From Phycisphaerales bacterium (lineage in GTDB: Bacteria > Planctomycetota > Phycisphaerae > Phycisphaerales > UBA1924), in contig JALSHH010000032.1 in assembly GCA_026982335.1 (NCBI GenBank), positions 1 through 57,632 on the forward strand: a stretch of DNA of 57,632 nt, read 5' to 3'. Each line of letters begins with the position of its first letter. The stretch's first letter is position 1. A program made the position numbers and the translations under genes. This document shows, one piece after another, positions 3,532 through 50,054 of this stretch. The notes below the pieces were generated by a model. It saw nothing but the letters and a program-made list of their open reading frames with translations. It searched no databases and was not told the origin of the DNA.

Positions 3532-3538
3532 CGCAGGT

Positions 3539-4636: not shown

Positions 4637-4696
4637 CCGCTGGGCCCCTTTCTTGTTGCTCTTTCTTTGTCGCGATCTTTGGCCGGGCTTTTCTGA

Positions 4697-5314: not shown

Positions 5315-5493
5315 ATGAGAAACCTCCGTGCGTACCAATTGTGTGTCTTCCTACATGGTATACCGAAAAAGGGGGCGTTGGTTGACATTAAGTGGGCGAA
5401 TATATCTGTAACCATCGATTTCCGATAGATTTCATGCCCCGTCGAACCAGCGGGTAGAAAGTGAGCGGGGTTGGCAGCAAGGGTCGGCGGGGT

Positions 5494-12467: not shown

Positions 12468-14612
12468 TTATGGACAACCTGCACCAAAGGCAGCAAGGAA
12501 GGCTGAGACATCGAAGAAGTTGAATGCTCCGTCATTGTTGAAGTCCGCGACTGGATCCATCGCGTTGAATGCGCTGAGGAAGGCTGAGACATCAAAGAAG
12601 TTGAGCACGCCGTCGCCGGTGATATCGGGCGGACATGGGGCAAGGACCGTGATGGTATTGGTATCCGAGACCCAGTTGTTGTCAAGGGTTGGGTCAAGCC
12701 CGAGTGACTCGTCCACGATCGTTCCAATGTAATAAGTGCCCGGAGCCAAGTCATTTGGAATTTGAACCAATGAGTTACTCCAAATGCTGTTGCCTACGGG
12801 AATCGGTCCGTAGGACCGGTCTTCCATGAAGGTGTCGAAAGTCGAGATGATCTGGTTGGTCGATGCACGGAACTCGAGAGAGACATCGCCCGAAATGCGT
12901 TCGCCAACATTGAATGTTCGATGTGTGACCGAGACATATTCACCGGGGTAGTACGAACCGGCGACAGCATCGCAGAGGGTGGCTTCAAGATCAGGTCGTG
13001 CGAGATTGACCGTGATCTGCTGGGCATCCCAGGTGTCGGTGTCGTTGTTGGATGAAAAACTGTCGGTGCCCGAATCAAGAATCGCGCCGATCCAGTAATC
13101 ACCCGGAGGCGTATCAAGCGGAATGATCGGGGCGGGTACATGGAAATTTATTGTCTGCATCGCTGCGAAGTCAACATCATAGATCCAAGTCGCCAAGAGT
13201 GTGTCGGCAGAAGAGATGTTGTTGTTGGTCGAAAGGTAGATCCGCAGCGTGTATAAATCAGCAGCAGGGTCGTTGTTGGTTGCATTGGCGATCGCGACAA
13301 GTGCGCCTGCATCCATCGCCTGCCCTTGGAGCACGCTGGTCGATCCGCTTGCGCGGAACCTGAGTGCTTCGAGATCGAAAGTGTTGCCTCGGGTATTGTT
13401 TTCAAAGGTCTGCATGTCGGTGACAAATGTTTGCCAGAGTTTGCAATAGCGTCCCCAGTTATTTCGATTGGAAGTTGAGCAGACCGCATGGACATACCGG
13501 TTGTCATCGACAATGTAATACATGCCCGAACCCGACATGCCGCCCCAGACGGTGTCGAGGCAGTTTCCTCCAGTGGCCAGTTCCATTTGGTTGTTGGGGC
13601 ATGAGTCGATCGTGCCGTTCCAGTAGTACATATCTGTTCCGGTGTGGAGTCCTGGTGTTGGGCAGTTTTCTGTCGGGTATGAGAAGTTGTGGTAGGTGCG
13701 CGACTGGATTGTGGCGCAGCTTTGCCCCCATGCCCAGCCGTACCACCCAGTAAGCATCCCGATATTTCGACTGGATCCTCGGGTAATGCGGATAAGTCCG
13801 GCGTCTGCATCAAAGTCACCGTTGTTGATATAGTTCGTGCCGGCGAGGAACACAGAACCAAAGGCATACCCGAAGTTTTCGATCACTTCGTTGCTATCAG
13901 GGGCATTAAACTGTCCGTTGTTCGAGACACCATCCCATGCTGGATAGATATACACAATGTCGGCCCAGTCATTGATGACGATTCCGTTGGGGGTGCGCGC
14001 ATAAACACAATGGGCAGCAGTAAGTACAACACCTGAGTCTTGCATTGAACCCGAGCAGACAAACCAGCGTTGAATACCGTTGATGTCGGTGAATCGCATC
14101 ACAAGTTTGACATTGCCCGAGCGAGGCCAGGAATCAAGGCTACTTGCGAGGACCATGTTTCCGAATCCTCGCCCGATTTCATCCGAGTTGTCGATCAGGT
14201 TTCCGAATCCCGGATAATCTCCTTCGATACTCTGCCCACCGATGGCATTGGTGTTTGAGAGGGGGATCGGGAGTTCGCGGGTTTCGCCAGTGACGGCATC
14301 ATGGAAAGTCATTCCTGATTCGCCGCCCGCAGGGGTGATTCCCGGTGCGACCGGATCGGGCATGGGCATCCACGGAATCTGATCGATTGGTGGATGGGGG
14401 AGTGCGAGCTTGCGATCTTGGGAAACCTTGGATCGAAAGAGCTCGCCGGCGTGCTCGCCGGAGACTGGTGAGACGGGGGCTCCATCAGTGGCGACGGGGC
14501 GTTGTCCCTCTCTGAGCATTGAACCTTGGTCGGCTGCCAATGCGCCTGTGGTAACCAAGGCGCTTATCGCAGCGATGCCAGCAATGGCGCCATACAAATT
14601 GCGACAATTCAT
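12468..14612 (-). CDS. Secreted trypsin/V8-like serine peptidase with CARDB-like repeats and GC-type dockerin tail
   Basis: This 714-residue exported protein has a signal peptide (residues 1-27, ending ALAA) and a serine peptidase domain. The triad can be read as His 201 (LTAAHCVY), Asp 270 (FDADAGLIRI) and Ser 360 (GGMSGSGMY), the last in the GxSGS form typical of V8-like/glutamyl endopeptidases. Two CARDB-like beta-sandwich domains follow at about residues 415-535 and 537-655 (STNNNISSADTLLATW; ASTNQIISTFDTF). The last 55 residues are the double FFD tail shared with the next seven minus-strand genes, ending GCP. AAGGAG lies upstream of the ATG. It probably acts outside the inner membrane; the substrate is unknown. 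Confidence 0.9.
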   Translation of the reverse strand: MNCRNLYGAIAGIAAISALVTTGALAADQGSMLREGQRPVATDGAPVSPVSGEHAGELFRSKVSQDRKLALPHPPIDQIPWMPMPDPVAPGITPAGGESGMTFHDAVTGETRELPIPLSNTNAIGGQSIEGDYPGFGNLIDNSDEIGRGFGNMVLASSLDSWPRSGNVKLVMRFTDINGIQRWFVCSGSMQDSGVVLTAAHCVYARTPNGIVINDWADIVYIYPAWDGVSNNGQFNAPDSNEVIENFGYAFGSVFLAGTNYINNGDFDADAGLIRITRGSSRNIGMLTGWYGWAWGQSCATIQSRTYHNFSYPTENCPTPGLHTGTDMYYWNGTIDSCPNNQMELATGGNCLDTVWGGMSGSGMYYIVDDNRYVHAVCSTSNRNNWGRYCKLWQTFVTDMQTFENNTRGNTFDLEALRFRASGSTSVLQGQAMDAGALVAIANATNNDPAADLYTLRIYLSTNNNISSADTLLATWIYDVDFAAMQTINFHVPAPIIPLDTPPGDYWIGAILDSGTDSFSSNNDTDTWDAQQITVNLARPDLEATLCDAVAGSYYPGEYVSVTHRTFNVGERISGDVSLEFRASTNQIISTFDTFMEDRSYGPIPVGNSIWSNSLVQIPNDLAPGTYYIGTIVDESLGLDPTLDNNWVSDTNTITVLAPCPPDITGDGVLNFFDVSAFLSAFNAMDPVADFNNDGAFNFFDVSAFLAAFGAGCP

Positions 14613-15151
14613 CGTTTTCTCCTTTCACTGTTGTGTGGTTTGCTCGTGGGCAACAAAGCATTCTGCCTGATGTGTTCCGCATGCTCATTAAGAAACGGGA
14701 CTCAAAAATCTTCCTCGCTTCTGCACACAACACAGCCGAGCCACAAGGCTCAGTCATGAAAAAGCTGTCCAAGCTCAAGCTACAGTTACCGCATATGCCC
14801 CTGCGGAGCGATACCCCGCTTTTGGCAAAGTTTTCCGTGACATCGAGAATAATGTTGACGAAAACAAAACACTTTGAACATTCTCAAAGGTGCTGCGTAT
14901 TTTAGAGTTGGCACATCAAGATTACGAGCTGCCCCATACAAAAAATCCCTCAAGAAAAGACACTGTGGTTCTAGTGTAGCAGGAAAACACGGACAAATTT
15001 GCGAAAAAAGACAAAATATAACCAGAATGATCATTCAGGAATGGGTGTGCCCCTTGTTTGGGTGGTTGTGTGTGTGGAAATTGTTTTGAATAGAGTATGT
15101 GGAGTATTGGGCGGAGCGTGCCGGGGTGGTTGAGGGGGTGGATAGCGAGGT
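14613..15151. other. Intergenic region between divergent peptidase and regulator genes
   Basis: These 539 bases separate the peptidase gene (minus) from the winged-helix regulator (plus). A 5-bp hairpin GAGCC-ACAA-GGCTC lies at 14738-14751. On the plus strand TTGAAC (14874-14879) and TATTTT (14898-14903), 18 bases apart, form a weak promoter-like pair. The region is AT-rich and no open frame in it looks coding. It is the obvious place for operators of the regulator, but I see no clear palindrome. Confidence 0.4.
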
Positions 15152-15739
15152 ATGATGAGTCAGGTATGTAAAGTGATTAAAAATGAGCATGTAATTTCTG
15201 CACCCAAAGATATGTGGGTTTTGGCAAGCCCCGTTCGAATGGAAGTGCTCAATGCGGTGTGTGCACTCGAAGAATGTTCTGCGGGTGAGATAGCAACATT
15301 TACTGGTCGGTCACGCACTTCGCTTTATCCTCATATCGAACAACTCATCAAAGCAGGATTGATTCTTGAAGGTGAAGTTCGTTTGGCAGGCAAGCGATAT
15401 GAACAACTCTACCACCCAATTGCACGAACCATACGTATTAAACACAATCCGAAAGATCCGGAGGTGGTGGCTTATCACCAAGCTCATGGTAAGGCGGCGG
15501 GGCGGATGATGACCCGATTGCATGAACGAGCCATCGACGATCCGAAGGCGGTTGTTCGCGGACCATTGCGCGATACTTACTTGGGGATTATTTCTGCCTG
15601 GGTGAATGACGATTCACTCGAAGAGATTAATGAGTTGGTCGGGAGGATTTGGGAAATATGCCGAAATTCTCACCCTAGTGATGACAAGCGATTGGTTAAT
15701 ATTGGGATCATGCTTGCGCCCAATCGCCGTAAGGATTGA
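15152..15739 (+). CDS. ArsR-like winged-helix transcriptional regulator
   Basis: A 195-residue DNA-binding protein. Residues about 25-90 form a winged helix: LASPVRMEVLNAVCALEECS, the recognition helix in GRSRTSLYPHIEQLIKAGLI, then a wing with YEQLYHP. This fits the ArsR/PadR-like winged-helix superfamily. The remaining 100 residues are helical and charged, without metal-binding Cys/His clusters, so an effector cannot be named. Two ATGs (15152, 15155) follow GAGG closely. It is the only plus-strand gene inside the cluster of eight dockerin-tailed genes, divergent from the peptidase gene and convergent with the multiheme cytochrome gene (about 20 bases apart). It could control the cluster; this is inference from position only. 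Confidence 0.8.
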   Translation: MMSQVCKVIKNEHVISAPKDMWVLASPVRMEVLNAVCALEECSAGEIATFTGRSRTSLYPHIEQLIKAGLILEGEVRLAGKRYEQLYHPIARTIRIKHNPKDPEVVAYHQAHGKAAGRMMTRLHERAIDDPKAVVRGPLRDTYLGIISAWVNDDSLEEINELVGRIWEICRNSHPSDDKRLVNIGIMLAPNRRKD

Positions 15740-15758
15740 TTGTTGATTTTGATCGCTT

Positions 15759-17654
15759 TTATGGACATCCGCTCTCAAAGGCAAGCAGGAACACGGAGAT
15801 ATCAAAAAAGTCAAATTTGCCATCATTTGTAAAATCGGCGATCGGATTTTGCTGTCCAAAGGCGGTCAGGAACGCAGAGAGATCAAAGAAGTTGAGCAAC
15901 CCATCGCCAGTCATATCTGCCGGGCATGTCGATGGGAAGATGAAGGTGCCTACATCCATCTCAACGATGGGGCTTTTTCCGGTGATGACCCATTGGTCAT
16001 AAACCTCTTGCCCACGCGAGTCGGTGACATTTTGGTCTCGGAGAAATTCGATGTATTCTTTGCTGGTGGTTTGGAAGTAGACTCGGACATCGGCCCTCAC
16101 TGCTCCTTGCGGGACTGTGTATTGGGTGTCGTCCCAATATTCACCATCGGCATAGGTATAGGCGACAGGCTCTGCCTGGACAGACTGAAAGTTGGCGTTG
16201 GTAAATCCGCGTGGGGGGATGCGATTGTCCTTGTAGCGTACATTGCTGAGGACAAAGTGGAAGTTTGGTCCTGCGGGTACGCCGGTCAGTGCACTGACGG
16301 CTTCATCTGGTCCAAGTTTTGCCTCATAGACCTTGGTGTCTTCTGTGGTGAGCAAAGCGGTTTCTTGGTCATAGGCACCGTGCTCGGCGATCATGGTATT
16401 GTTGGCATCAAAAAACTGGACATTGATCCACATGCGCCGCCCTTCGGGATAACCAGTGGGGAGTTTATGTCCGGTTTGGTTGATGATGCGAACATTGAGT
16501 TCGTCGCCGACCATTGAGAGCTCCATATCTGAAGCGTCGCGGAGCATTTCTTCTGCTCGCTCGATGGATTGGGCGACAAGTTCAGGCTGGAGCCCGGTGA
16601 CAAAGTCGTTGGGATTAAGGTTGCGAATAGCATTGAGTACCCAGTTGTTGCCGCCACTGAACGAGTGGGTGGAATAGTTGGGCCTATTTTCCTCGAATCG
16701 GCACGCCTGGAGGTCGGTTTCAGGCATGTGACAATCCTGACAACTCGATACGGCCGGGAGCGCGGTTTCGTACCGATCCCCGATTGGAACGGGGCCTTTG
16801 GCAAAATCACTCATCAGCCACTCGGAGTAAGTGCGCTCGATGGGGAAAGTATCGTAAACATTGTTAGTAGGGTGGGGGGCATCGAGTTCGTTGAGCACAT
16901 AGGTGCCATCGGGTTGGGCGGTAAAAACGGGGTTGGAAACATCATGGCATGTTTTGCACAGGTTCGAAGTCTGATGGAAGGGCGATTGTTCCCAATCGTG
17001 GTAGAAGAAGTCAGGTCCTTGGTCATATGGTCCACGCCGACGATCGAGCGGGTCGATCACAAAGGCTCCCGAGTGTGATTGATCCTGGGTTGGCGCATCT
17101 GCCCCAAGATTGTTGAGGATATCGAGGTCAACAACCGGCGAGATTCCGGGTTTGTAATCCGGGTCGGCCATACGATGACAGACGCTGCACGAGACACCTT
17201 GTAAGTCGATATCGAGCAGGGCCGATCCATCGGTTGGGGTCGATCGTCCTTCAAGCCATCCGCCGGGGGTGTGGCAACGAAGACACAAGTCGCCCGCAAA
17301 GGCTGCGTCTTGGTTGGCGATGGTCAAGGCTGCGAGGAACAGCGGGTCGCGCATCGATTGCCCCATCATCGAAGCCGACCATGTTGCGAAAATATCATGT
17401 GCCTCGTCATAGAACCCGTGACAGCTGGCGCAGGTATCCGAGCCAACAATTTCATGGGTCAATGAATTTGGCTGAGTTCCAGGCATGCGGAAGTCGTTGA
17501 GTGTGGTCGGAACCTGGACCTGAACCTGCTCCTGAGGCTCGCCGACAAAGCCCATCGCAATCAGCCCGACACTCAACCCAAACCCAACAAAAAAAGTGCC
17601 TTTGCCAGTGCGCATGGCGCTCGTCAGGGTGCTGATAGAAAAACCGCTGTGCAT
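15759..17654 (-). CDS. Exported five-heme cytochrome c with GC-type dockerin tail
   Basis: A 631-residue exported protein with a hydrophobic N-terminal segment (about residues 20-38) and five CxxCH heme-attachment motifs: CASCH (75-79), CLRCH (124-128), CSVCH (156-160), CKTCH (233-237) and CQDCH (305-309). This marks a multiheme c-type cytochrome for electron transfer in the periplasm or outside the cell. Residues about 340-570 are a beta-rich region (RIINQTGHKLPTGYPEGRRM is a recognisable stretch seen in related cytochromes). The tail of 55 residues ends SGCP. GGAGA lies upstream of the ATG at 17654; an internal ATG (Met 14) is possible. Redox partners are unknown. Confidence 0.9.
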   Translation of the reverse strand: MHSGFSISTLTSAMRTGKGTFFVGFGLSVGLIAMGFVGEPQEQVQVQVPTTLNDFRMPGTQPNSLTHEIVGSDTCASCHGFYDEAHDIFATWSASMMGQSMRDPLFLAALTIANQDAAFAGDLCLRCHTPGGWLEGRSTPTDGSALLDIDLQGVSCSVCHRMADPDYKPGISPVVDLDILNNLGADAPTQDQSHSGAFVIDPLDRRRGPYDQGPDFFYHDWEQSPFHQTSNLCKTCHDVSNPVFTAQPDGTYVLNELDAPHPTNNVYDTFPIERTYSEWLMSDFAKGPVPIGDRYETALPAVSSCQDCHMPETDLQACRFEENRPNYSTHSFSGGNNWVLNAIRNLNPNDFVTGLQPELVAQSIERAEEMLRDASDMELSMVGDELNVRIINQTGHKLPTGYPEGRRMWINVQFFDANNTMIAEHGAYDQETALLTTEDTKVYEAKLGPDEAVSALTGVPAGPNFHFVLSNVRYKDNRIPPRGFTNANFQSVQAEPVAYTYADGEYWDDTQYTVPQGAVRADVRVYFQTTSKEYIEFLRDQNVTDSRGQEVYDQWVITGKSPIVEMDVGTFIFPSTCPADMTGDGLLNFFDLSAFLTAFGQQNPIADFTNDGKFDFFDISVFLLAFESGCP

Positions 17655-17891
17655 GCTCGTTCTCCGACAGATTTGATTTCAACAAGTTCGGTGTGGAGTC
17701 ACACCGCGTCATGTATAGATTCTTATTTGGTCGGCTTAGTGTTGCAAGAACTTCGATGAATTCCTCGCAAAACAAGGCAATTTTCTCCGATTTCCTCCCG
17801 CAGTCCAAACGAAGACAAAGCAGCACAAACCAAGATAACGGAGGTGGTTGTCAAGAATGAGTGGTCATGGATAATATGGTTCTCTTTGCAA

Positions 17892-17915
17892 GAAAAAACC
17901 CGGGGAAGCCCGGGT
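17892..17915 (-). terminator. Rho-independent terminator
   Basis: Arms AACCCGGG (17896-17903) and CCCGGGTT (17908-17915) with a 4-base loop are followed on the minus strand by a T-run (17897-17892). It lies 27 bases beyond the stop of the beta-repeat dockerin gene. Confidence 0.85.
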
Positions 17916-17942
17916 TGCAAGGTAAGGGTGGTTTTAGTGTTG

Positions 17943-20432
17943 TTATTGGCAGGGTGCGGAGAAAATCTGGAGGAATGCGGAGATATCGAAAAAGTTAAAG
18001 CTGCCATCGCCATTGATATCGGCTTCGGGATCCTGAGCGCCAAAGAGCTCGAGGAACTTGGAAACATCGAAGAAGTTGAGCACCCCATCTCCGGTGTAGT
18101 CCGCGTCACAGGTAAGGATTACAAAGACCCGATCCGATTCGTAGATCACACGGTAGACCTGTCCGATCGGGGCGCTGGGCACATGTTTTGTTGCGAACTC
18201 ACCGGTGATCGTGCCGCCGTCGATGATGTCCCATGTGTCGCCAAATACAGGGGTGTACCCTGCGTCGAGATTAACCGTCAGCGTGCCGTCGAGGTCGATG
18301 GTGTCCGCTGTGCCAAGGAGCAGCCGGTCAAACTCACCAGCCAACAAGCCTCCGAGGTCTGCGATCATCGCCGAGGTTGGCGAGAAATGCAAGACATCGA
18401 TATCGAATCGGCGGTGTGTCGAGTCAGGGTCGAGCGTGCCGTTCATGTTCATTTCACCTTGAAGTCGTCCGCTTCCGGTGATGGTTTGTCCTTCACCGAT
18501 GGTGCCGATGAATCCCTGGTTGCTGAGGATTTGGGCATCGCCGAAGTCGCCATTGACGAACATCTCGATGGTTCCATTGCCATCAACTACAGTCGCTGCA
18601 TCAAAGCGAAGGTGGGCATTAAAAACAGCGCCATTGGAGTTGATGGTGATGGTGCCGTTGTTGGTCATCGGCCCGGTGAGGCCGATGGTTCCACCTTGTC
18701 CACGAATTCCCATCTGTCCAAGGTTGGTGATATTCGAGAGGGTCACAAGGCCGCCTTGGGTCATCTCCACGATTCCACCCCCGGAAGAATCAAAGGTGCC
18801 CCCGTCGAGGATCAGGCCACCGCGGAGATCAATCAGCCCATCATCAGCGCGATAGGTTCCACTGCCACTGTGATTACCTGCCAACCCTAAATCGGCCGTT
18901 GGGTCATTCCCGTTAATGATGCCGAGGTTGACAATCGTGCCGTCGTTGGCTCCGGTAATGAGCCCGCTCCCTTCAACAACTTGGTTGGTACCAATCGTGC
19001 CGTCGAAGGCGCCGCCGGTCAGGATTTGAGCGTCGCCCAAATCGCCATTGCTGACCATGACGACATTACCCGAACCACCAAGCACAGCTTCAACATCGAA
19101 TTGGAGGTGAGCGTTAAAAACAGCGCCATTGGAGTTGATGGTGATGGTGCCGTTGTTGGTCATCGGCCCGGTGAGGCCGATGGTTCCACCTTGTCCACGA
19201 ATTCCCATCTGTCCAAGGTTGGTGATATTCGAGAGGGTCACAAGGCCGCCTTGGGTCATCTCCACGATTCCACCCCCGGAAGAATCAAAGGTGCCCCCGT
19301 CGAGGATCAGGCCACCGCGGAGATCAATCAGCCCATCATCAGCGCGATAGGTTCCACTGCCACTGTGATTACCTGCCAACCCTAAATCGGCCGTTGGGTC
19401 ATTCCCGTTAATGATGCCGAGGTTGACAATCGTGCCGTCGTTGGCTCCGGTAATGAGCCCGCTCCCTTCAACAACTTGGTTGGTACCAATCGTGCCATCG
19501 AAGGCGCCGCCGGTCAGGATTTGAGCGTCGCCCAAATCGCCATTGCTGACCATGACGACATTACCCGAACCATCAAGCACAGCTTCAACATCGAATTGGA
19601 GGTGAGCGTTAAAAACAGCGTCATTGGAGTTGACGGTGATGGTGCCGTTGTTCACAATATTGTCATTAAGCAGCAAGGACCATCCTTGCCCTGGAATTTC
19701 CAGATCACCAGTATTGATGATATTGCCGATGGTGGCGGTGTTCTGGACCTCGATAAGCCCCTCATTGATTGTTGACATGGTGCCACCGGTCGTGACGGAA
19801 CCGTTGCCGAGTAAAAGTTTCCCAGCATTTGCACCAACACTTCCATTTGCTGCTTGTGTCAAGGTTCCAGCAAGCCTTAAGCCCGCTCCGGCAGGATCAT
19901 CTGCAATGATGTTTCCCGAATTGAACATGGTGCCAAAGATGCTGCCCGAACCTCTAATCGTGTGGCCGTTGGTGTGGGTGATGGTGAACCCATTGCCCAC
20001 GACTTGCGCATCGCCCAGGTCGTTGAGGGCATTAAGTACGATTGTCCCTGTGCCAGAGATCGTCGCGTCGGCTGCAAAGCTCAAATGCGTATTGAGGAGT
20101 GCTCCGGTTGGGTTGATGACCATCAATCCGTTGTTGAGTAAGTTGTCATTGAGTGTGAGCGTTCGGTTCGATCCGATGTTCAGTGTTGCAAGAGGGTTGG
20201 TGATGGATAATCCGCCGATTGTCAAGTTGGCGAAGGCATCAACGGTATAGGAAATGACAAACCCAAGGACAGCATCTTCGCCGATCGTGTCGGGAATATT
20301 GGCACCGATCCAGTTGGCCGAGTCGCTCCAATCACCATTAACAGGCGATGCCCATCCGATAACCTGTGCTCCTGCTGAAGTTCCTGCCAAGGCAATCACG
20401 GTGCAGACCGATAAACAGAATCGTTTTTCCAT
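17943..20432 (-). CDS. Exported beta-repeat (autotransporter-like) protein with internal duplication and dockerin tail
   Basis: An 829-residue exported protein with a signal peptide (cleavage likely near SAGA-Q) followed by an NGDWSDSANW motif common at the start of autotransporter-type beta-repeat passengers. The body is a chain of Gly/Asn/Thr-rich strands (NNGTITINSNGAVF, GSGTYRADDGLIDLRGG), expected to form a right-handed beta-helix. Residues about 275-440 and 440-605 are near-identical copies, matching a 495-bp DNA duplication. There is no outer-membrane barrel; instead the protein ends in the shared 55-residue tail, here finishing APCQ rather than GCP. GAGGAAATG lies before the start. 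A surface structural or adhesive role is plausible but not shown. Confidence 0.88.
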   Translation of the reverse strand: MEKRFCLSVCTVIALAGTSAGAQVIGWASPVNGDWSDSANWIGANIPDTIGEDAVLGFVISYTVDAFANLTIGGLSITNPLATLNIGSNRTLTLNDNLLNNGLMVINPTGALLNTHLSFAADATISGTGTIVLNALNDLGDAQVVGNGFTITHTNGHTIRGSGSIFGTMFNSGNIIADDPAGAGLRLAGTLTQAANGSVGANAGKLLLGNGSVTTGGTMSTINEGLIEVQNTATIGNIINTGDLEIPGQGWSLLLNDNIVNNGTITVNSNDAVFNAHLQFDVEAVLDGSGNVVMVSNGDLGDAQILTGGAFDGTIGTNQVVEGSGLITGANDGTIVNLGIINGNDPTADLGLAGNHSGSGTYRADDGLIDLRGGLILDGGTFDSSGGGIVEMTQGGLVTLSNITNLGQMGIRGQGGTIGLTGPMTNNGTITINSNGAVFNAHLQFDVEAVLGGSGNVVMVSNGDLGDAQILTGGAFDGTIGTNQVVEGSGLITGANDGTIVNLGIINGNDPTADLGLAGNHSGSGTYRADDGLIDLRGGLILDGGTFDSSGGGIVEMTQGGLVTLSNITNLGQMGIRGQGGTIGLTGPMTNNGTITINSNGAVFNAHLRFDAATVVDGNGTIEMFVNGDFGDAQILSNQGFIGTIGEGQTITGSGRLQGEMNMNGTLDPDSTHRRFDIDVLHFSPTSAMIADLGGLLAGEFDRLLLGTADTIDLDGTLTVNLDAGYTPVFGDTWDIIDGGTITGEFATKHVPSAPIGQVYRVIYESDRVFVILTCDADYTGDGVLNFFDVSKFLELFGAQDPEADINGDGSFNFFDISAFLQIFSAPCQ
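18619..19608. repeat. Tandem duplication of a 495-bp unit inside a coding region
   Basis: Copy one is 18619-19113 and copy two is 19114-19608. By direct reading I find only two differences: G at 19002 versus A at 19497, and C at 19078 versus T at 19573. A third, more diverged start of the unit continues from 19609 for about 40 bases. The period is a multiple of three, so the frame is kept and 165 residues are duplicated. Confidence 0.95.
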
Positions 20433-20628
20433 TTTTTTACATTTCCTCTATTAGTGTGATGTATGTAATTGATTGATGCCACGACGACGAACACAGTCCG
20501 CGCAACAGCAGGCGGGCAGCGGCGTTTTATTTTGCCGAGACAAGATATGACGAGAGGGTATCATAGGTTCCACGCTTCGGAAAGATTTGTTTTTAAATGG
20601 AGCAACAATTTTGCCTAACGCACTCAAA

Positions 20629-20653
20629 GCCGGCCACATTCCATGTGGCCGGT
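20629..20653 (-). terminator. Hairpin after dockerin gene (terminator-like, weak T-run)
   Basis: Arms CCGGCCACAT (20630-20639) and ATGTGGCCGG (20643-20652) give a perfect 10-bp stem with a 3-base loop, about 30 bases beyond the stop of the gene ending at 20683. The minus-strand sequence after it (TTTGAG) is a poor T-run, so it may stabilise the RNA end or act with Rho. Confidence 0.6.
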
Positions 20654-20682
20654 TATAAAAAGAATTGGTTATTGGGCGTTGT

Positions 20683-21747
20683 TTATGGGCACCCAACAGC
20701 GAATGCAGCAAGAAAGGCCGAGACATCGAAGAAGTTGAAGAGCCCATCGTTGGTAAAATCGGCAGCCGAATCCATCGCACCAAAGGCACTCAAGAAATTT
20801 GAGACATCGAAAAAGTTGAGTTGTCCATCGCCATTGATATCAGCGGCGCACGATGCTGTCCCATTGGCCACGATCACCATCCCCAGCGACGCATCAACAC
20901 CAACCGATTCGGGTACCGAAGAGTAAATCACCGAAGCGGTTTCAGTACCAAAGGTCGGGAGTTCAAAGGGCACATCAGGTACCGCAGCGCCATCGAGCGG
21001 GATCACCATCGAGATCGGATCGGGTGTCAACTCAAGGGTAATAAGTACCGATCCATTTCCGAGGATTTCGACCTGTCCCCCAACCGGAAGCATCATCGGC
21101 AGTGGGTCGATTGGTGTAGGGAGCGGATCTTCTCCAGGTAGTGCGGTGTCCACCACCATATCGAGTTGTGCAGGGATGAGGAGATCAATGGTGAAGACAT
21201 CAGGGTCTCCAGTGGGGGTCAACGTGCCCGCACCCAAATTGGTCTGAGTCAAGATGGCTTGGGTGATTCCACCAATTTCCCCGATGGGAACATCAATGGG
21301 TGTTCCACCCAAATAAATAAAGGAGGGATTGATGGTGTGGAAAGTGTTGTAGAGCATGGTGGCGGTGAGGTTGGTCGTGCTTGGTGCTCCATTAATCAAA
21401 TCAGCCACAAGACCATCGATCTCAACAAGTCCTGCGTCGAAGTCAGGCACGAAGTTAAAGGACCCCGCAGGGTTGGTATCAAGAAGTGTGTCCGCGCTCA
21501 ATGAGACGGAGGTGTTGATTGGCTGGTTGCCCGATCCGCCGAAGATTCCTGGGCGGGTCTGTGTTCCCCCGGGATTCATTTCCGGATCATAATCGCCGAT
21601 GATGGTGCCTGAAGAATCAAAGACGATGACCGAATCAAGGGTCGAAGTGCTTATTTTCGAGTCGATGGTACTTTCAAAGTTCTGGGCCCATGTGCTCGAG
21701 CTCAAGAAGGTTGCTGTGCAAAGCCATGCATATGTCGAGGCGTTCAT
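20683..21747 (-). CDS. Exported protein of unknown function with GC-type dockerin tail
   Basis: A 354-residue protein with a signal peptide (residues 1-22, ending TWAQ). About 270 residues of acidic, Pro/Thr/Ile-rich beta sequence follow, and then the shared 55-residue tail ending VGCP. The middle region has no heme motif and no catalytic motif that I recognise; stretches such as INTSVSLSADTLLDTNPAG and GGQVEILGNGSVLITLEL suggest beta-sandwich folds. AGGGA lies upstream of the ATG. It sits between two other dockerin-tailed genes with a hairpin on each side, so it is probably transcribed alone. It could be a structural or binding component. Confidence 0.85.
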   Translation of the reverse strand: MNASTYAWLCTATFLSSSTWAQNFESTIDSKISTSTLDSVIVFDSSGTIIGDYDPEMNPGGTQTRPGIFGGSGNQPINTSVSLSADTLLDTNPAGSFNFVPDFDAGLVEIDGLVADLINGAPSTTNLTATMLYNTFHTINPSFIYLGGTPIDVPIGEIGGITQAILTQTNLGAGTLTPTGDPDVFTIDLLIPAQLDMVVDTALPGEDPLPTPIDPLPMMLPVGGQVEILGNGSVLITLELTPDPISMVIPLDGAAVPDVPFELPTFGTETASVIYSSVPESVGVDASLGMVIVANGTASCAADINGDGQLNFFDVSNFLSAFGAMDSAADFTNDGLFNFFDVSAFLAAFAVGCP

Positions 21748-21785
21748 TTTTTTCCCTTTTCTGTTTTGGTGGTGTCAACAATGAA

Positions 21786-21818
21786 ATCAGGCCAAACCTC
21801 GCTGAGGTTTGGCCTGAT
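21786..21818 (-). terminator. Long hairpin between two dockerin genes
   Basis: A perfect 15-bp stem (21786-21800 with 21804-21818) and a 3-base loop lie about 27 bases beyond the stop of the sugar dehydrogenase gene. The minus strand continues TTCATTG, a weak T-run. It is probably a terminator or 3' stabiliser. Confidence 0.7.
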
Positions 21819-21844
21819 CTGGATGTACGAAACGGTGATTTCAA

Positions 21845-23206
21845 TTATGGGCACCCAGCACTGAATGCTTTGAGGAATGCCGAGATGTCAAAAAAGTTGA
21901 ACATCCCGTCATCGTTAAAATCCGCCACCGGATCCTCATTGCCAAAGGCGGTGAGGAATGCCGAGATATCAAAGAAGTTCAGATCACCATCGCCGGTGAG
22001 GTCAGGTGCACACGCGGTTTCGCATGCGTCAGGAATCCCGTTGTTGTCGTCGTCAGGTGCAGCCGGATTCACCAATTTGAAGACCTGCCCGGAGAACACA
22101 TCCGAGATATAAAGTTCACCTGCTTCATCTTCGCCCCATGATGAGAGTCCAAACCCAAAGTTGAACTCGGTGGTGCGTGAATAGTCGGTTGGATCAAGCG
22201 TCCAGATCGATCCGCCGCAGTAATCTCCAAAGAAGTAGAGCCCCTGATACGCTTCGCCGAGTTCACACCCGCGATAGACATACCCGCCGATGACCGAGCA
22301 GTTGCCACCCGAGAGTGGATAAGCATGGACTGGATCGGTCCAGTCAGTAGCGCCACACGAGAGCCCCGTTGCCTGAAACGCCTCTCGACAGCGCCATCCA
22401 TAGTTCACCCCACCAACATTGCCGATGTTGTGGTTGACTTCTTCAAAAGCGTTCTGCCCGACATCACCGATCCACATATCGCCCGTTTCGCGGTCGAAGC
22501 TTGTCCGCCAAGGATTCCGAAGCCCATAGTGCCAGATGGATTCCACAGCACCAGCGACACCAACAAAGGGATTATCCGCAGGGACTTCATAGTTCTGAAG
22601 GTTATCACTAGGGAAGTCATCCCCACCATCGATGTCGATGCGGTGAATCTTGCCCAAAGGCTGGCTGAGTCTTGCTGCCCGGTTGCCCGGGTCATTGGCC
22701 GAGCCGCCATCGCCTGCTGCGACATAGAGATATCCATCGGGGCCAAATCCAAGCCATCCACCATTGTGATTCCCGAACGGCTGGCTGTGGAACAGGATGA
22801 TCCGTGCGGTGCCCGGATCAGCAATGTTGGGATCACTGGCGGAAACCTGATACTCAGCAACCCGGGTGTCGCCACCGCTACCGATGTAGTTTACATAGAA
22901 CTTGCCGTTGGTTTCGTAGTCAGGGTGGAAAGCAAGTCCGAGCATTCCTTGTTCATTTCCGCCACTGGTTCCGCCAACCACAAGTGGGTCGATATCAAGG
23001 AACGGCGTTGGTAACAGGTTGCCATTGGCATCGATAATACGAATGGCGCCCTCCTGCTCGATGATAAACAAACGCCCAGAACCATCGCCCGCATGGGTGA
23101 CGAACACTGGACGGTCAAGCCCGTTGGCAATTTCCTGGGTGGTTAATTGCGCACTGGCAACGGACCCGGTGGCGGCAATGAGGCACGCACAAAGTAAACG
23201 ATTCAT
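21845..23206 (-). CDS. PQQ-dependent sugar dehydrogenase-like beta-propeller protein with dockerin tail
   Basis: A 453-residue exported protein of the glucose/sorbosone dehydrogenase family, which oxidises sugars with PQQ on a six-bladed propeller. Family landmarks are GLDRPVFVTHAGDGSGRLFI, EQGMLGLAFHPDY, LYVAAGDGGSANDPGN, GLRNPWRTSFDRETGDMWIGDVG and YRGCELGEAYQGLYFFGDYC. The Asp/His pattern is compatible with an active enzyme. A signal peptide spans residues 1-19. The ATG at 23206 is preferred because GGGAGAG lies upstream and the signal starts there; the longer open frame upstream has no export signal. The 55-residue tail ends AGCP. Electrons could pass to the nearby cytochromes (inference). 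Substrate unknown. Confidence 0.9.
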   Translation of the reverse strand: MNRLLCACLIAATGSVASAQLTTQEIANGLDRPVFVTHAGDGSGRLFIIEQEGAIRIIDANGNLLPTPFLDIDPLVVGGTSGGNEQGMLGLAFHPDYETNGKFYVNYIGSGGDTRVAEYQVSASDPNIADPGTARIILFHSQPFGNHNGGWLGFGPDGYLYVAAGDGGSANDPGNRAARLSQPLGKIHRIDIDGGDDFPSDNLQNYEVPADNPFVGVAGAVESIWHYGLRNPWRTSFDRETGDMWIGDVGQNAFEEVNHNIGNVGGVNYGWRCREAFQATGLSCGATDWTDPVHAYPLSGGNCSVIGGYVYRGCELGEAYQGLYFFGDYCGGSIWTLDPTDYSRTTEFNFGFGLSSWGEDEAGELYISDVFSGQVFKLVNPAAPDDDNNGIPDACETACAPDLTGDGDLNFFDISAFLTAFGNEDPVADFNDDGMFNFFDISAFLKAFSAGCP

Positions 23207-23390
23207 GTTGGTTCTCTCCCTTGATCCGTCGTTCGGATCCTTTTGCGTCTGGTCGGATATCTCAATCCCACCTGAAAACTGAAAAACGCTGTTCGGACGG
23301 GCGAATGCCCGTGGAGTATTATTCGTCATCCCGACGAATCGGGTTGCTTGGAAAGCCATTTCCTCATCATCAATTGTATAAATTGTACCC

Positions 23391-23420
23391 AAACAAAAGC
23401 GAGACAAAAGGCTCGTTTTT
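23391..23420 (-). terminator. Rho-independent terminator
   Basis: A stem pairing AAAGCGAG with CTCGTTTT around an 8-base loop sits just after the gene ending at 23423. On the minus strand it is followed by TTTTGTTT. The stem includes one G-T pair, so strength is moderate. Confidence 0.6.
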
Positions 23421-23422
23421 TG

Positions 23423-24433
23423 TTATGGGCACCCCAGACTGAAAGCCTGGAGAAATTCTGAGACATCGAAAAAGTTGAAGCTGCCATCATTATTGAAGTC
23501 TGCAATTGGATCTTGAACGCCAAATGCACTAAGAAATGCTGAGACATCGAAGAAGTTGAGTGTTCCATCGCCATTGATATCTGCCGGGCATGGTGTTTCG
23601 CATTCGGTCGTCCCAGGCCCGCTCCAGACCCCGCCAACGATATCGCAAGTTGCCCGATCAAACTGCACGCATTGCTCAGTCGCAGGGATATAGCACGCCC
23701 CAAGGCACAGTGCATCAGCACAGGTCGAACCCGCGCCATTCCAGAATCCTCCGAGATCAATCGTCTGGGCCTCGGTGAGTCCCTCTACACATGAACCATC
23801 AGGCAGACATGCAGCGCCGGTAGGTTCGCCTGAACATTCGATCACCGCACGGATGACCCAGTCGCCTGAAACCCCCAGGGCGCACGCATCCATCCACACC
23901 GATCCATTAACCTTGACTGTATTTTTTCCGCTTTGGCATCCTGAATCATCAGAGACAACACTGGGTAAAAACTGGTTGGTGTTATTGGCATTGAAAAACT
24001 TGAGCGAGACAACAAACTCCTCACCAGCAGCGACAGGGATCGAAATGGGGATGGTCTGATTCTCGTCTTGATACCGAAATTCGTTGAGCCCGCCGTCGAT
24101 CAATGCGGGGGCATCGAATGAGTCTTTGACAGGTCCCGGATTGGGGAAGTTTCCACCTTGATAGACAATGATGGAATCTTCAAGTGAGATTTGTGCCCCA
24201 CCCAAGAATGATTTCCAGAAGATCTGGATCGCCACGATATCGCCATCGCACGGGCTCGTTAGCCAGACGGCTGCCTCTTCGTCAGCAGCAAAGCATGGAC
24301 AAATTGCCACGGTTCCGCCATCAACGAGCGAATCATTTTGCACCGTGATCTCATCGCCCAGCGCTGGGGTGTACAAAACGCCCAGACACACAAATGTAGC
24401 GCCCACACGGGTAGACAGAATGGATTGATGCAT
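23423..24433 (-). CDS. Exported Cys-rich protein with GC-type dockerin tail
   Basis: A 336-residue protein with a signal peptide (residues about 1-26, ending ALGD). A beta-rich domain of about 170 residues follows, then a Cys-rich stretch with related units (ACLPDGSCVEGL, CLGACYIPATEQCVQFD, CDIVGGVWSGPGTTEC) likely held by disulfides. The 55-residue tail ends LGCP. The ATG at 24433 is chosen because GGAGG lies upstream. I do not recognise an enzyme motif. The Cys units resemble short modules seen in other planctomycetal secreted proteins, but the exact family is uncertain. Confidence 0.85.
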   Translation of the reverse strand: MHQSILSTRVGATFVCLGVLYTPALGDEITVQNDSLVDGGTVAICPCFAADEEAAVWLTSPCDGDIVAIQIFWKSFLGGAQISLEDSIIVYQGGNFPNPGPVKDSFDAPALIDGGLNEFRYQDENQTIPISIPVAAGEEFVVSLKFFNANNTNQFLPSVVSDDSGCQSGKNTVKVNGSVWMDACALGVSGDWVIRAVIECSGEPTGAACLPDGSCVEGLTEAQTIDLGGFWNGAGSTCADALCLGACYIPATEQCVQFDRATCDIVGGVWSGPGTTECETPCPADINGDGTLNFFDVSAFLSAFGVQDPIADFNNDGSFNFFDVSEFLQAFSLGCP

Positions 24434-24533
24434 CGGGTTTTCCTCCGAAAAAATACGGCTTACCGGTGCAGTACACAAACACCCACAGGCCGCTGATCGA
24501 TCTGAGTGTATCACAAAAATAAAATACCAAAAG

Positions 24534-24561
24534 AAAAAACCCTTCAGTTTGAGGAAGGGTT
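24534..24561 (-). terminator. Rho-independent terminator
   Basis: Arms AACCCTTC (24538-24545) and GAAGGGTT (24554-24561) with an 8-base loop are followed on the minus strand by TTTTTTCTTTT. It lies about 54 bases beyond the stop of the cytochrome c peroxidase gene. Confidence 0.85.
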
Positions 24562-24614
24562 GATGGACAAAAAACAGCGTTCTGTCGGACGATCTGCCTT
24601 GTGGAAAGCCGGTC

Positions 24615-26504
24615 TTATGGACAACCCGCAGCGAAAGCAGTCAGGAATGCCGAAATATCGAAGAAGTTGAACTCTCCATTCTCATCGAAGTCTGCTGCAG
24701 GATCTGTTTCATTGAAGAGGGTCAAGAAAGCAGAGAGATCGAAGAAGTCAAGCTCGCCATCACCAGTAAGATCCGCAGCACACGATGGAGTGCACGAAGC
24801 GATCATCGAACAGAACGGCGTCACCGTGGCAACCTGCGAATACGCAAATCCGCCCACAGCTCCTGGGTCGGCGACGATCCATTGCATATAAAATACCTGC
24901 CCATCCATCGCCGGGTCGTCGAGCGGATAGATCAGCGTCCCGAATCCATCACCCGCACCCATCCCATTGAGTGCGATCGGGCCAACGAGTTCGTCTTGAG
25001 GCACGAGTCCGTCCGACGGTGGATTTGATGAAATTGCCACCCAAGCTTGTGCTCCGCCAAGGGCAAAATCAATTCCAATCTTAAATCCCAAGTTCCCAAT
25101 ATTGGGCGGAACAATCGCGATCATCTTGGGCGTATATCCACCGGTGCCCACGACCCCGGGTTCGGTGATCATCGGGTTTGGTGTGTCGAGCTCGGAATGA
25201 AGTGTTGGACGATCAAATGGAAAAGTTTCGTTGGCGACACGGGGGTCGGTTAGTGCAGTATTGATGAAGTTCTTGACAATTGCTTCATTCTCAGGTGAAA
25301 AGACAATCGGTGAGTTAAGCCTGAAATCTCGGTTTTCAGGCAGAGGACCCAATCCATTACGATGAGCATAAAAATCAAAAACATCATCCATCGTTTCAAT
25401 CATGCCCGTGTGCATAAACCGGTCGCGCAAACCAACATTACGAAGCGAACTCATTCGGAAAGCGCCTCGCTCAAAACTTACCCCAGTGACACCTGCACGC
25501 CCGATATCTTCTTCGATTGGTCGGACACCTTCCACAATAAAATTATTGGTGGTAAACAACGGCGCGGTATGGCAGTTGTTGCAGGTTGATTCACGATAGA
25601 GCGTCCATCCGAGCTGTTGTTCAGGAGTCATGGCTGAGTCATCACCCGCATTCCACAAATCCCAAGGCGATTCGCCTGGGACGAGCGTCCGCTCATAAGT
25701 TGCAATCGCAAACCCAATACGGGCAGGAGTGACCTGGGGATCGCCAAAGGCCCACTCAAAGAGCGCTGGGTAAGTCTCATGCGTCGAAATAGCATCAAGC
25801 ATATCCGGAGGAATATCCGACGCTAAAGCCAAGGGCTTGGCGTTGGCGATCTTGGTGGTGACCGAATCCCAGTCTCGGTCCTGATGGGCCATTTCAATAT
25901 CATTGAGAATTGGAGCCAACGATTGAATCTCGAGGGCAGCACTTGAAACAGCAAGGGTTTCGCCAGTGATCGGGTCAATAAAATCTCCCTCGGCCCGCCC
26001 ATCCCAAAAAAGGTTGCCGACATACATCGACACATGGTTGTTCATCGAACGCCGACCAGTGACCTGAGGCTCAAGATCATACAAAGGCGAACGAATATAA
26101 AGTCCATCAACATCTGTCGCAATGAGTCCGGGTGATCCGTCGACATCATCGGGCGTTCCAAAAATACCATCAAAAGCCGGGTTGAGTCCAACGCGAGGAT
26201 CAACCCCACCTTCCGATGGAATATGGCAGGTGCCACATGAGATGGTGTTGTCGCTCGAGAGTTGCTCATCCCAAAACAAAATTTTGCCCAACACCCGTTT
26301 CTCTTCTGTTACCGGGTTCTCAGGCGGGGCAAAGGGTTCCCACAATCCAATCACTGCCTCATCAGCTCGGTCGATTTCTCGCTGGGTTTGTGCCACTGTG
26401 TTTGACACGCCCACACTTGAGAGTCCCAGAAAGGTTGCTGCCCCAATAAGAACCCTGTTTTTCGACAAGGGTGCTTTGGATAATGCGAAAAGAAAATTTT
26501 TCAT
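24615..26504 (-). CDS. Di-heme cytochrome c peroxidase family protein with GC-type dockerin tail
   Basis: A 629-residue exported protein related to bacterial di-heme cytochrome c peroxidases/MauG-like proteins, which reduce H2O2 or carry out heme-based oxidations. Two CxxCH motifs are present, CGTCH (90-94) and CNNCH (308-312), in the family order. Family-like stretches between and after them are KILFWDEQLSSDNTISC, NHVSMYVGNLFWDGRAEG, FRMSSLRNVGLRDRFMHTG and DDVFDFYAHRNG. Residues about 460-570 are an added beta-rich domain, and the last 55 residues are the shared tail ending AGCP. AAGAGG lies upstream of the ATG. It acts outside the cytoplasm. The linked five-heme cytochrome and PQQ enzyme suggest a redox partnership (inference). 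Confidence 0.92.
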   Translation of the reverse strand: MKNFLFALSKAPLSKNRVLIGAATFLGLSSVGVSNTVAQTQREIDRADEAVIGLWEPFAPPENPVTEEKRVLGKILFWDEQLSSDNTISCGTCHIPSEGGVDPRVGLNPAFDGIFGTPDDVDGSPGLIATDVDGLYIRSPLYDLEPQVTGRRSMNNHVSMYVGNLFWDGRAEGDFIDPITGETLAVSSAALEIQSLAPILNDIEMAHQDRDWDSVTTKIANAKPLALASDIPPDMLDAISTHETYPALFEWAFGDPQVTPARIGFAIATYERTLVPGESPWDLWNAGDDSAMTPEQQLGWTLYRESTCNNCHTAPLFTTNNFIVEGVRPIEEDIGRAGVTGVSFERGAFRMSSLRNVGLRDRFMHTGMIETMDDVFDFYAHRNGLGPLPENRDFRLNSPIVFSPENEAIVKNFINTALTDPRVANETFPFDRPTLHSELDTPNPMITEPGVVGTGGYTPKMIAIVPPNIGNLGFKIGIDFALGGAQAWVAISSNPPSDGLVPQDELVGPIALNGMGAGDGFGTLIYPLDDPAMDGQVFYMQWIVADPGAVGGFAYSQVATVTPFCSMIASCTPSCAADLTGDGELDFFDLSAFLTLFNETDPAADFDENGEFNFFDISAFLTAFAAGCP

Positions 26505-26599
26505 GAGAAAACCTCTTTTGAGACGGGTATACAGGCAGGCCCAGCGAGCCGATGCCCCTTGTGCTCAGAGTATACACCAAGTGTAAAAATCAACAAGAC

Positions 26600-26622
26600 A
26601 AAAAAATGGACCTTTGGGTCTG
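26600..26622 (-). terminator. Weak terminator-like hairpin with long T-run
   Basis: A short GACC/GGTC stem is followed on the minus strand by seven T residues, about 35 bases beyond the stop of the gene ending at 26654. The stem is only about 4-5 bp, so the call rests mainly on position and the T-run. Confidence 0.5.
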
Positions 26623-26653
26623 CTTCTGGGGTTGAAAGCCGTTTCTTATTGGT

Positions 26654-28060
26654 CTATGGGCATCCGGCTCCAAATGCTTCAAGGAAGGCTGAGATATCGA
26701 AGAAGTTGAGTTTTCCATCGTTGGTCAGGTCTGCATCGAGGTTTGCATCTGCAAAAAGTTTGAGAAAAGCGGACACATCGAAAAAGTTGAGTTGGCCGTC
26801 GTTGTTGAAATCGACCACACATTCACTTTGAACTGGCGTGGCAACAAAGACACCAATGGTTCCATTGCGGAGAAAGAGGCTCATTGCGATCTGTCCTTGG
26901 TCGTTGATGTCAATGACGCCGTTGACCACTTGTCGCCCTGTGAATCCTCCAAAATCATACCCCAAAGCGATCGGGCCCAAATCCGTGTCAATCATCTGGT
27001 CCCACTCGACGAGTTTGGTCAAATCAGTTCCATTGCCAACCCAAACTGCGGTTGAGTCATTGGATACATCACTTGCCCGGAAGGCAACAGTCCCGCTCGA
27101 GTTAATTACCGGCGGGAAGTTGGCGATCGACCCGTTTTGGATATCAGGATGGTCTCCCGAGCCAATTGTCGTTGTCGTCATTGTCATTCCATCCCACCGG
27201 AGAACCTCCCAGATAGATCCTGCCGATCGTCTTGCCGAGAAGGCGACAGACCCACTTTGAGCAATTGCAGCGGAGTTGACAAACGCATTCCATTGCCCGC
27301 CGGTCTCGGCGATGGTCGTTGGGACGCCTTGGGTATCAAACCGTACGATGCGTCGTGTCGATCCTTGGGCGATGGTGTTGGCGACAATTTGGCGCGCGTC
27401 GTTGATCTCGGGTGAAAAAAGAAAACTGTATGTTCCTGTGCCTGTTTCGGCGATTAGTGTTTGGGTTCGACTGCCTTGGGCAAATTCGTCGACAATAAGC
27501 TTGTCGACTGCTCCGGAATCTGCCCGATAGCAAATCGCTCCATCGCCAGTCAAGGTGATGCCTGTGAATCCGGAAACACCTTCATCGCCACCGATGCCAA
27601 AGTCGTGCATGAGCGTACCATCGGTTGTATAAAGTTGAGCTCCGTCACCAAAGCCACCCATTTCGATTGCGATCATGTTGTTCCGAAGATCGAGCGATGA
27701 AGACCAGACAGGATTGCCCGAAGTATTGGCAGTAAAGATCACACTTCCAGTCCCACCTTGGCCGTAGAACACGCCTTCAGCTCCACCGAGAATGACCCGT
27801 ATACCCACCGCTCCATCTTCTGCAATCGAGACATATTGCGACGAGAGCGAGCTTGGGAAAGGCAAGTTGAATGCCGGAATCCCGCCATCGAGGCTCGATC
27901 GGCATTGAAGTTCGAAAATCCACTGGGTTGTCGCTTGGTCAGCAACAGCAGATATCGTTGAACTTGTCCGGGCCGGTAGGATTTGGGCCTGGACCAATCC
28001 GGGCGAACCAGCCCACAAGCCAACGACCCCCGTAAGGGTGCAAATAGGGACACTGTACAT
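26654..28060 (-). CDS. Exported propeller-like repeat protein with GC-type dockerin tail
   Basis: A 468-residue protein with a signal peptide (residues 1-25, ending VQAQ). About 380 residues contain recurring strands of the form GxxAFRA/FSA (AICYRADSG, SVAFSARRSAGSIWEVLRW, TVAFRASDVSNDSTAVWVG), spaced as in beta-propeller or related repeat proteins. The 55-residue tail ends AGCP; its linker reads ADANLDAD instead of the usual DPxAD form. GGAGA lies upstream of the ATG. Similar repeat proteins with variable anchors are common in Planctomycetota (general knowledge), but their role is not known. It is the first dockerin-tailed gene downstream of rho on the same strand. Confidence 0.87.
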   Translation of the reverse strand: MYSVPICTLTGVVGLWAGSPGLVQAQILPARTSSTISAVADQATTQWIFELQCRSSLDGGIPAFNLPFPSSLSSQYVSIAEDGAVGIRVILGGAEGVFYGQGGTGSVIFTANTSGNPVWSSSLDLRNNMIAIEMGGFGDGAQLYTTDGTLMHDFGIGGDEGVSGFTGITLTGDGAICYRADSGAVDKLIVDEFAQGSRTQTLIAETGTGTYSFLFSPEINDARQIVANTIAQGSTRRIVRFDTQGVPTTIAETGGQWNAFVNSAAIAQSGSVAFSARRSAGSIWEVLRWDGMTMTTTTIGSGDHPDIQNGSIANFPPVINSSGTVAFRASDVSNDSTAVWVGNGTDLTKLVEWDQMIDTDLGPIALGYDFGGFTGRQVVNGVIDINDQGQIAMSLFLRNGTIGVFVATPVQSECVVDFNNDGQLNFFDVSAFLKLFADANLDADLTNDGKLNFFDISAFLEAFGAGCP

Positions 28061-45236: not shown

Positions 45237-45351
45237 GTTTTCATTCCTTCCTCTTCCTCTTTTTTCTTGTCTCTCACCCCTCACCCCTTTCAAGCTCTTC
45301 GCGAACTTCGTGCTAAAAAACATTGCTCTCTCTCCTTCCTACCATCTCCCC

Positions 45352-47058: not shown

Positions 47059-47060
47059 GT

Positions 47061-49309: not shown

Positions 49310-49330
49310 TTTTTCATCTTCCGCCTCCCC

Positions 49331-49357
49331 GGCGTCCCCGCGGACGGAGGGGGTCTT
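49331..49357. repeat. Short interspersed GC-rich repeat, copy 1
   Basis: GGCGTCCCCGCGGACGGAGG followed by GGGTCTT resembles the sequences at 54837-54892 and 55246-55290. It lies between two convergent genes. Confidence 0.5.
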
Positions 49358-49367
49358 CAAGAACTTG

Positions 49368-49958: not shown

Positions 49959-50054
49959 CTCTCGAACCTATACGAAACCATGACGAGACAGGTTTCAAAC
50001 AAGCATCAAGATCGAGCCTTTCCATCTTTTTCCCCTCTTCCCACTCCCCCCTCT

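Follow-up and report, generated by a model that had tools for sequence, protein, structure and literature searches.

A GC-type dockerin as the shared C-terminal tail of exported proteins in Phycisphaerales, with helix motifs that differ by lineage

The array and its C-terminal tail

A 57,632-nt stretch of DNA from a Phycisphaerales bacterium (GCA_026982335.1, contig JALSHH010000032.1; hereafter the window) carries at 12468-28060 an array of eight minus-strand genes, each ending in the same 55-residue tail. A sequence-only reading had described this tail as opening with C-x-x-D, carrying two units, bearing a cysteine at position 54 and ending in GCP in seven proteins and PCQ in one, all of which was confirmed by reading the eight tails. 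The domain is already known as the GC-type dockerin (NCBIfam NF041540, dockerin_GC). Here we describe its spread through the genome and the lineage-specific code of its helices, and argue that it may be an address read by one shared partner.

The eight tails align gap-free over 55 columns, 23 of them invariant, with cysteines at columns 1 and 54. All eight array proteins score above the 29-bit cut-off of NF041540 (39.2-46.3 bits), in agreement with the earlier assignment to GC-type dockerins, and the five window tails tested against Dockerin_1 of Pfam (PF00404) scored 13.9-20.2 bits, all below the gathering score of 22.9. Among 293 distinct tails, aspartate occupies tail positions 4, 15, 31 and 42, corresponding to loop positions 1 and 12, in 288, 290, 292 and 293 cases, respectively. 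The AF2 model of the tail is a folded two-helix domain (predicted local distance difference test, pLDDT, 96.5), and the five best rows of a Foldseek search with it were dockerin structures (TMq 0.57-0.62, with weak E-values of 1-2). Both hallmarks of a type I dockerin, namely its fold and a pair of loops bearing calcium-ligand positions, are found, in the sequence and in the AF2 model. The PEP-CTERM and MYXO-CTERM tags consist of a signature followed by a membrane helix and a basic end; neither a hydrophobic segment nor a basic end was found in the eight array tails. The module is placed at the C-terminus, with 308 of 379 hidden Markov model (HMM) domain matches ending no more than four residues from the end of the open reading frame.

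Variants of the module were met in related loci. In L041, L052, L053, L055, L087, L109 and others the first loop is of the ADLAEPYGELNFFD type, in which calcium-ligand positions are lost, and both cysteines are kept. L071 (5909-7513), L057 (10314-11510), L089 (10256-11896) and perhaps L078 (7328-7483) carry single-loop, half-dockerin tails in which one cysteine precedes the loop and a second stands at the end; judging from these sequences, a unit appears to have dropped out and the cysteine pair to have been retained.

The proteins to which the tails are joined differ widely (Table 1). Their upstream parts had been called unrelated, which is mostly so, the exception being one weak BLAST match between genes 2 and 8 (67 columns, 34%, E ~1e-5; 1.6e-6 pairwise). 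There are five CxxCH motifs in gene 2 and two in gene 7. The peptidase label once given to gene 1 comes down to the trypsin match below cut-off, and gene 3 is repetitive and beta-helix-like by sequence, as had been said, with no Pfam match at E 0.01. The eight tagged genes do follow one another, but the array is not uninterrupted, as a plus-strand regulator gene lies between genes 1 and 2. Export signals of the array proteins were assessed by eye only; genes 5 and 6 probably begin later than listed, at signal-peptide-like starts whose positions are given in the table. Gene 8 resembles the model of MXAN_5453, a family named MYXO-CTERM-anchored (E 1.9e-24, 86 bits against a cut-off of 500), a likeness that would fit a tail standing as a module in the anchor position.

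Table 1. Genes and tails of the array (window coordinates)
Feature	Position	Strand	Length	Description
gene 1	12468..14612	-		exported protein with tail; weak trypsin-like match (Trypsin, below cut-off at E 0.006)
tail 1	12471..12635	-	55 aa	
regulator	15152..15739	+		HTH_20 (helix-turn-helix, ArsR-like) regulator within the array; relatives in 8 related loci
gene 2	15759..17654	-		five-heme cytochrome with tail
tail 2	15762..15926	-		
gene 3	17943..20432	-		repetitive exported protein, beta-helix-like by sequence, with tail
tail 3	17946..18110	-		PCQ end
gene 4	20683..21747	-		exported protein without Pfam match, with tail
tail 4	20686..20850	-		
gene 5	21845..23407	-		GSDH (glucose/sorbosone dehydrogenase-like) with tail; probable start 23206
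tail 5	21848..22012	-		
gene 6	23423..24514	-		Cys-rich exported protein without Pfam match, with tail; probable start 24433
tail 6	23426..23590	-		
gene 7	24615..26504	-		MauG/CCP-type di-heme enzyme with tail
tail 7	24618..24782	-		
gene 8	26654..28060	-		resembles the MXAN_5453 and NxxGxxAF choice-of-anchor models without reaching the cut-off of either; with tail
tail 8	26657..26821	-		

The array is a conserved colinear cluster of redox and other exported proteins, presumably held together for reasons of its own. We compared 77 loci from 12 assemblies (nine titled Phycisphaerales), fetched by tail similarity. In 9 of the 12 assemblies a single locus held three or more of the eight gene families, a figure not to be taken as a rate, as the fetch favours relatives of the array; of the other three assemblies, two had two families and one had none in the fetched loci. 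Where loci overlap, the order is rho-8-7-6-5-(extra tagged gene)-4-3-2-HTH-1-transketolase, with further tagged genes in some; rho lies at one end in five loci, transketolase at the other in five, and the HTH gene is found in eight. In OFTM189 (L084) the content of the cluster is largely kept and the order is different. The extra tagged gene of the relatives, of about 290 aa between genes 5 and 4 (L063:9344-10168 and relatives), is absent from the window, in which its would-be neighbours lie 97 bases apart as listed. The cytochrome of gene 2 was found in 96 of the 201 genomes of the order; among the matches listed there was one genome of family f3 and none of f2. For gene 7, the six other genomes of f1, the window's family, among the 22 genomes tested gave no match at E <= 1e-10.

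Elsewhere in the window, signs of a diderm envelope lie near the array (LpxC, LpxD, Omp85/POTRA and two LptF/LptG-type genes; 2674-8103 and 44842-51295), and a TPR and glycosyltransferase-41-like protein adjoins a sulfotransferase at 35867-38592. A scan for promoters and terminators found 9 promoters against 13.0 expected, and 22 terminators against 17.0; neither count is used in the argument.

Spread of the tail and scarcity of PEP-CTERM

The assembly that contains the window (2.56 Mb in 56 contigs, 92% complete) gave 55 matches to NF041540, 54 above cut-off, on 28 of the 56 contigs; 47 of these tails are found beyond the window, spread over 27 further contigs. The array tails are no more alike among themselves (mean identity 0.666) than they are to 21 of the 47 tails elsewhere, taken from the best-scoring loci (0.659). 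Thus, the array tails are a sample of a genome-wide set, which speaks against the dedicated sorting or scaffold locus that had been proposed; a tandem-duplication origin of the array was likewise considered and is not supported, as its tails are no closer to each other than to others. Even scatter, which had been named as the observation that would undo that proposal, describes the distribution only in part: tails occur genome-wide, yet they cluster above chance, 19 of the 55 having a neighbour within 3 kb (P 0.00085). The window array holds eight tails and the next contigs four each, and in none of 20,000 random placements of the 55 tails did at least eight fall within 14.35 kb. Outside the array, 12 of 47 tails had a neighbour within 3 kb against 4.9 expected (P 0.02, contig ends ignored). 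A larger group than the window array was seen in genome G431, where 13 Dockerin_1 matches lie within 20 kb (C1:3225407-3245182; 86 of 100 matches covered).

Across the phylum, with up to 19 candidates scored per genome, 20 of 294 genomes matched NF041540 at E <= 0.001 and 11 did so above cut-off. The strongest belong to f1; two others of the same class above cut-off are G251 (f4, best E 4.8e-10) and G287 (f7, best E 1.8e-8). In G095, an f1 genome in one contig, there were 224 candidates, and all 150 that were scored exceeded the cut-off.

The tag-bearing genomes are poor in PEP-CTERM proteins (TIGR02595), a scarcity newly described here. The eight tag-rich genomes first tested had 4, 7, 13, 4, 11, 1, 1 and 0 matches, and six more f1 genomes, counted as tag-bearing from PF00404 matches and cytochrome tails, had 3, 4, 0, 2, 2 and 0; seven relatives of the order without NF041540 had 102, 62, 57, 38, 0, 20 and 58. 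The range is therefore 0-13 in the 14 tag-bearing genomes and 20-102 in six of the seven relatives. Comparison of the first eight with these seven gave a Mann-Whitney P of 0.02, and with fourteen, adding seven class relatives with weak NF041540 matches, 0.001; owing to shared descent both values are a guide only. The few PEP-CTERM proteins were considered as candidate large scaffolds and rejected, as the 52 matches listed lie in open frames of 63-647 aa. Genes 8 and 7, probed in the 22 genomes, had few relatives, and an exchange of this tail for PEP-CTERM on one orthologue was not shown among them.

Lineage-specific helices and the cysteine pair

Based on the cytochrome, which can be followed between genomes, the tails of orthologous proteins were found to be of different kinds: all 30 cytochrome loci (of the 96 matching genomes) have five CxxCH motifs and a dockerin-like tail. 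Tails of other proteins were sampled with PF00404 in six genomes and with NF041540 in G095; 83 of 90 stretches gave a C-terminal two-loop tail, or 91 including the window's eight. From these we composed, after viewing each genome's tails and in rough spelling, one motif per genome. The motif stands in both halves of the tail in 8/8 tails of the window (NFFDxS), 18/18 of G095 (TIFDFL), 19/20 of G431 (TPTDFTAW), 16/16 of G477 (DFNDFL), 15/17 of G374 (VxPxDIA), 4/5 of G398 (GGVDGxD) and 1/1 of G461 (DILDFL), and each genome's motif was found in none of the tails of other genomes (91 tails).

At loop positions 9-21, tails of different proteins of one genome share a mean identity of 0.74 (652 pairs) and tails of different genomes 0.30 (3353 pairs). 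The largest difference obtained in 2000 label shuffles was 0.04, against 0.44 observed (90 tails, 7 genomes). In the same tails the two halves of one tail are 0.71 identical on average over these positions; similar halves are taken in cellulosomes as a sign of dual binding (PMC6780208 and PMC4728124, in the parts consulted). The cytochrome tail was nearer to the tails of its own genome than to those of its orthologues in six of six genomes, barely so in G425 (0.38 vs 0.34). Genome-specific information is highest at positions 14, 10, 17, 21 and 11 of 22, and from their spacing positions 10, 14, 17 and 21 could lie on one helix face.

The tails of one genome are on average 40-82% identical over the two loop-helix units, and at identical residues their codons agree to within 0.023 of random expectation in seven of seven genomes (in the window 0.487 vs 0.473). 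Synonymous codons are thus randomized, and therefore selection on the protein, rather than recent copying or conversion, keeps the tails alike. We infer that a shared partner is the simplest cause of this likeness within a genome; an ancient spread of tails followed by selection is possible.

The two cysteines had been thought to suggest a disulfide, and two observations support that suggestion: they are conserved together, and in some relatives they have moved jointly to the linker. Both were counted in 270 of the 293 distinct tails, the C-terminal one only in 16, the N-terminal one only in none and neither in 7, a co-occurrence (Fisher 7e-9) that is overstated, the sequences being related and fetched with cysteine-bearing queries. 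By eye, the 16 tails with the C-terminal cysteine only divide into five with a cysteine at least one residue beyond the columns used for counting, four of the single-loop kind, one truncated at a contig end and six without the first cysteine. Among the 30 orthologous cytochrome tails, also read by eye, 22 have the terminal pair, four a linker pair, one a linker pair and a terminal cysteine, and three, all of family f4, none at all. The linker pair, newly described here, takes the form of W-G-P-C or similar at the helix end, then C-x-x-D ahead of loop 2. As read from the sequences, terminal and linker placements are equivalent under the internal two-fold symmetry of the dockerin, which fits a disulfide closing one of two seams. 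Cumulatively, this suggests that the pair may act as a disulfide clasp. Three proteins that resemble each other, in L072 (14645-15709), L076 (14757-15857) and L116 (12791-13900), have tails with neither terminal cysteine and one cysteine inside loop 2.

Interpretation and comparison with known systems

We favour, at a probability of roughly 0.6, the explanation that the tail is a calcium-dependent docking tag on exported proteins that acts genome-wide and co-evolves with one shared partner. In this GC-type dockerin with two calcium-site loop-helix units, a Cys1-Cys54 disulfide would join head and tail, and the module would serve exported proteins throughout the genome rather than the array locus. 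Its two similar helices would form a lineage-specific recognition surface for a partner located outside the cytoplasm or on the surface and missed by the Pfam cohesin model. The partner might be bound in two alternative orientations, the way cohesins and dockerins show dual binding, and the tag may largely have displaced the PEP-CTERM tag that relatives use. More tentatively, at a little short of even odds, we propose that in one Phycisphaerales family each genome has from tens up to some 200 exported proteins with a disulfide-clasped dockerin, that its helices, evolving in step, are an address code, different between lineages, for one non-cohesin partner, and that this docking system has replaced PEP-CTERM as the main tag.

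Several observations weigh against the favoured explanation. The motif of G425 (DFFDxQ) stands in both halves of only two of its six sampled tails and in either half of three. Predicted recognition residues of cellulosomal dockerins are positions 10, 11, 17, 18 and 22 (PMC6780208, in the part consulted); 10, 11 and 17 are in our top five, but enrichment of the lineage code at these recognition positions was not significant, either for the mean (P 0.06) or among non-calcium positions (P 0.16). The two halves of one tail exceed random codon sharing by 0.01-0.07, so that some duplication between halves is possible. The tag-free relative G220 likewise has no PEP-CTERM match, and all 22 genomes tested have an exosortase, so that exosortase loss did not drive the change of tag. 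Finally, no partner gene was found by the PF00963 searches or among 83 untagged putative secreted proteins of at least 450 aa (L040-L116, covering part of their genomes), none of which has internal repeats by BLAST.

The absence of a cohesin-like partner from the window, stated earlier, extends by PF00963 to the whole genome, so that the cohesin expected of a cellulosome was not found there by this model. A partner cohesin that has diverged beyond the reach of the Pfam model, which would be a special case of the favoured explanation, is a doubtful though serious alternative: a planctosome with cohesins has been proposed for freshwater Nemodlikiaceae of the class Phycisphaerae (PMC6461901, in the part consulted), and G278 has one PF00963 match below cut-off. 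There was no match in seven of the eight tag-rich genomes tested, including the window's genome and G095, and the G278 match, in an exported protein with dockerin-like loops and, by eye, a zinc-protease motif, is no evident scaffold. Of 22 genomes, only G220, G127 and G287 have PF00963 matches above cut-off; these (L117-L119, L121, L122) are class relatives poor in or free of GC-type dockerins.

Slightly less likely, the tail is a secretion signal and no anchor, its shared partner being a translocon that reads a folded C-terminal domain, much as type IX secretion reads the C-terminal domain of its cargo. A co-evolving partner and the C-terminal position of the tails fit this equally well, and no measurement here counts against it. 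Dockerins elsewhere are docking modules, which favours docking (PMC4728124 and PMC6780208, in the parts consulted). That the tail is simply a stable C-terminal cap without a partner appears unlikely: a compact fold closed by calcium and a disulfide would protect exported proteins, and the partner search found none, but a genome-specific motif in both halves of unrelated proteins, kept with randomized codons, would be left unexplained.

The covalent anchoring step that had been offered beside the disulfide, a sorting signal of the MYXO-CTERM or LPXTG kind that a dedicated enzyme would process at the cysteine, is improbable. A penultimate cysteine is present in most tails (284 of 293 in the column), gene 8 resembles a MYXO-CTERM family below its cut-off and exosortases are present. 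The tail is predicted to be a folded two-helix domain with calcium positions, a single residue follows the cysteine without any hydrophobic segment, and the pair lies in the linker in 5/30 cytochrome tails or is absent in three, all from f4. Recent copying or conversion as the only cause of likeness within a genome, to which average identities of up to 82% might point, is contradicted by the codons and by array tails no closer to each other than to others, and can hardly be maintained.

Cellulosomes are the main setting in which dockerins are known. In the genomes described here, redox enzymes and various other exported proteins carry them, by the tens or hundreds in each genome, in the absence of a Pfam-recognized cohesin. 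That the set changes as a whole from one genus to another leads us to expect one co-evolving partner and offers a route to it, as its binding face must vary with the code; such a system would supply naturally distinct, disulfide-closed docking tags. In the literature searched, outside which most subscription papers lie, no use of the term GC-type dockerin was found, and in work on dockerins in Planctomycetes or Phycisphaer-, disulfides, exosortases and sorting, mostly seen at the level of titles, we met no description of a lineage code or an exchange of tags.

The eight array proteins belong to NF041540, to which the present work adds the lineage code, the linker cysteine pair and the scarcity of PEP-CTERM. 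With PEP-CTERM/exosortase and MYXO-CTERM they share the principle that many unrelated exported proteins carry a common tag at the C-terminus, but the tail is predicted to fold as a domain and has no membrane segment. With the planctosome they share the class and a non-cellulosomal dockerin system, with cohesins there, as far as that source was consulted, and none by PF00963 here. Ruminococcus flavefaciens FD-1 has 222 dockerin proteins (PMC2930009, in the part consulted), a set comparable in size to that of G095; those of FD-1 form six groups and come with cohesin scaffoldins, whereas G095 has one motif in every tail read and no PF00963 match. Type I dockerins of cellulosomes (PF00404) show the same duplicated calcium loop-helix units, similar halves and a head-to-tail clasp such as is proposed here, but the window tails tested fall below the Pfam cut-off, no Pfam cohesin accompanies them and the cargo of the array is not cellulases. 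In the Clostridium thermocellum dockerin the head-to-tail contact is a Tyr-Pro stacking clasp (PMC4728124, in the part consulted); where rings stack there, a cysteine pair stands here.

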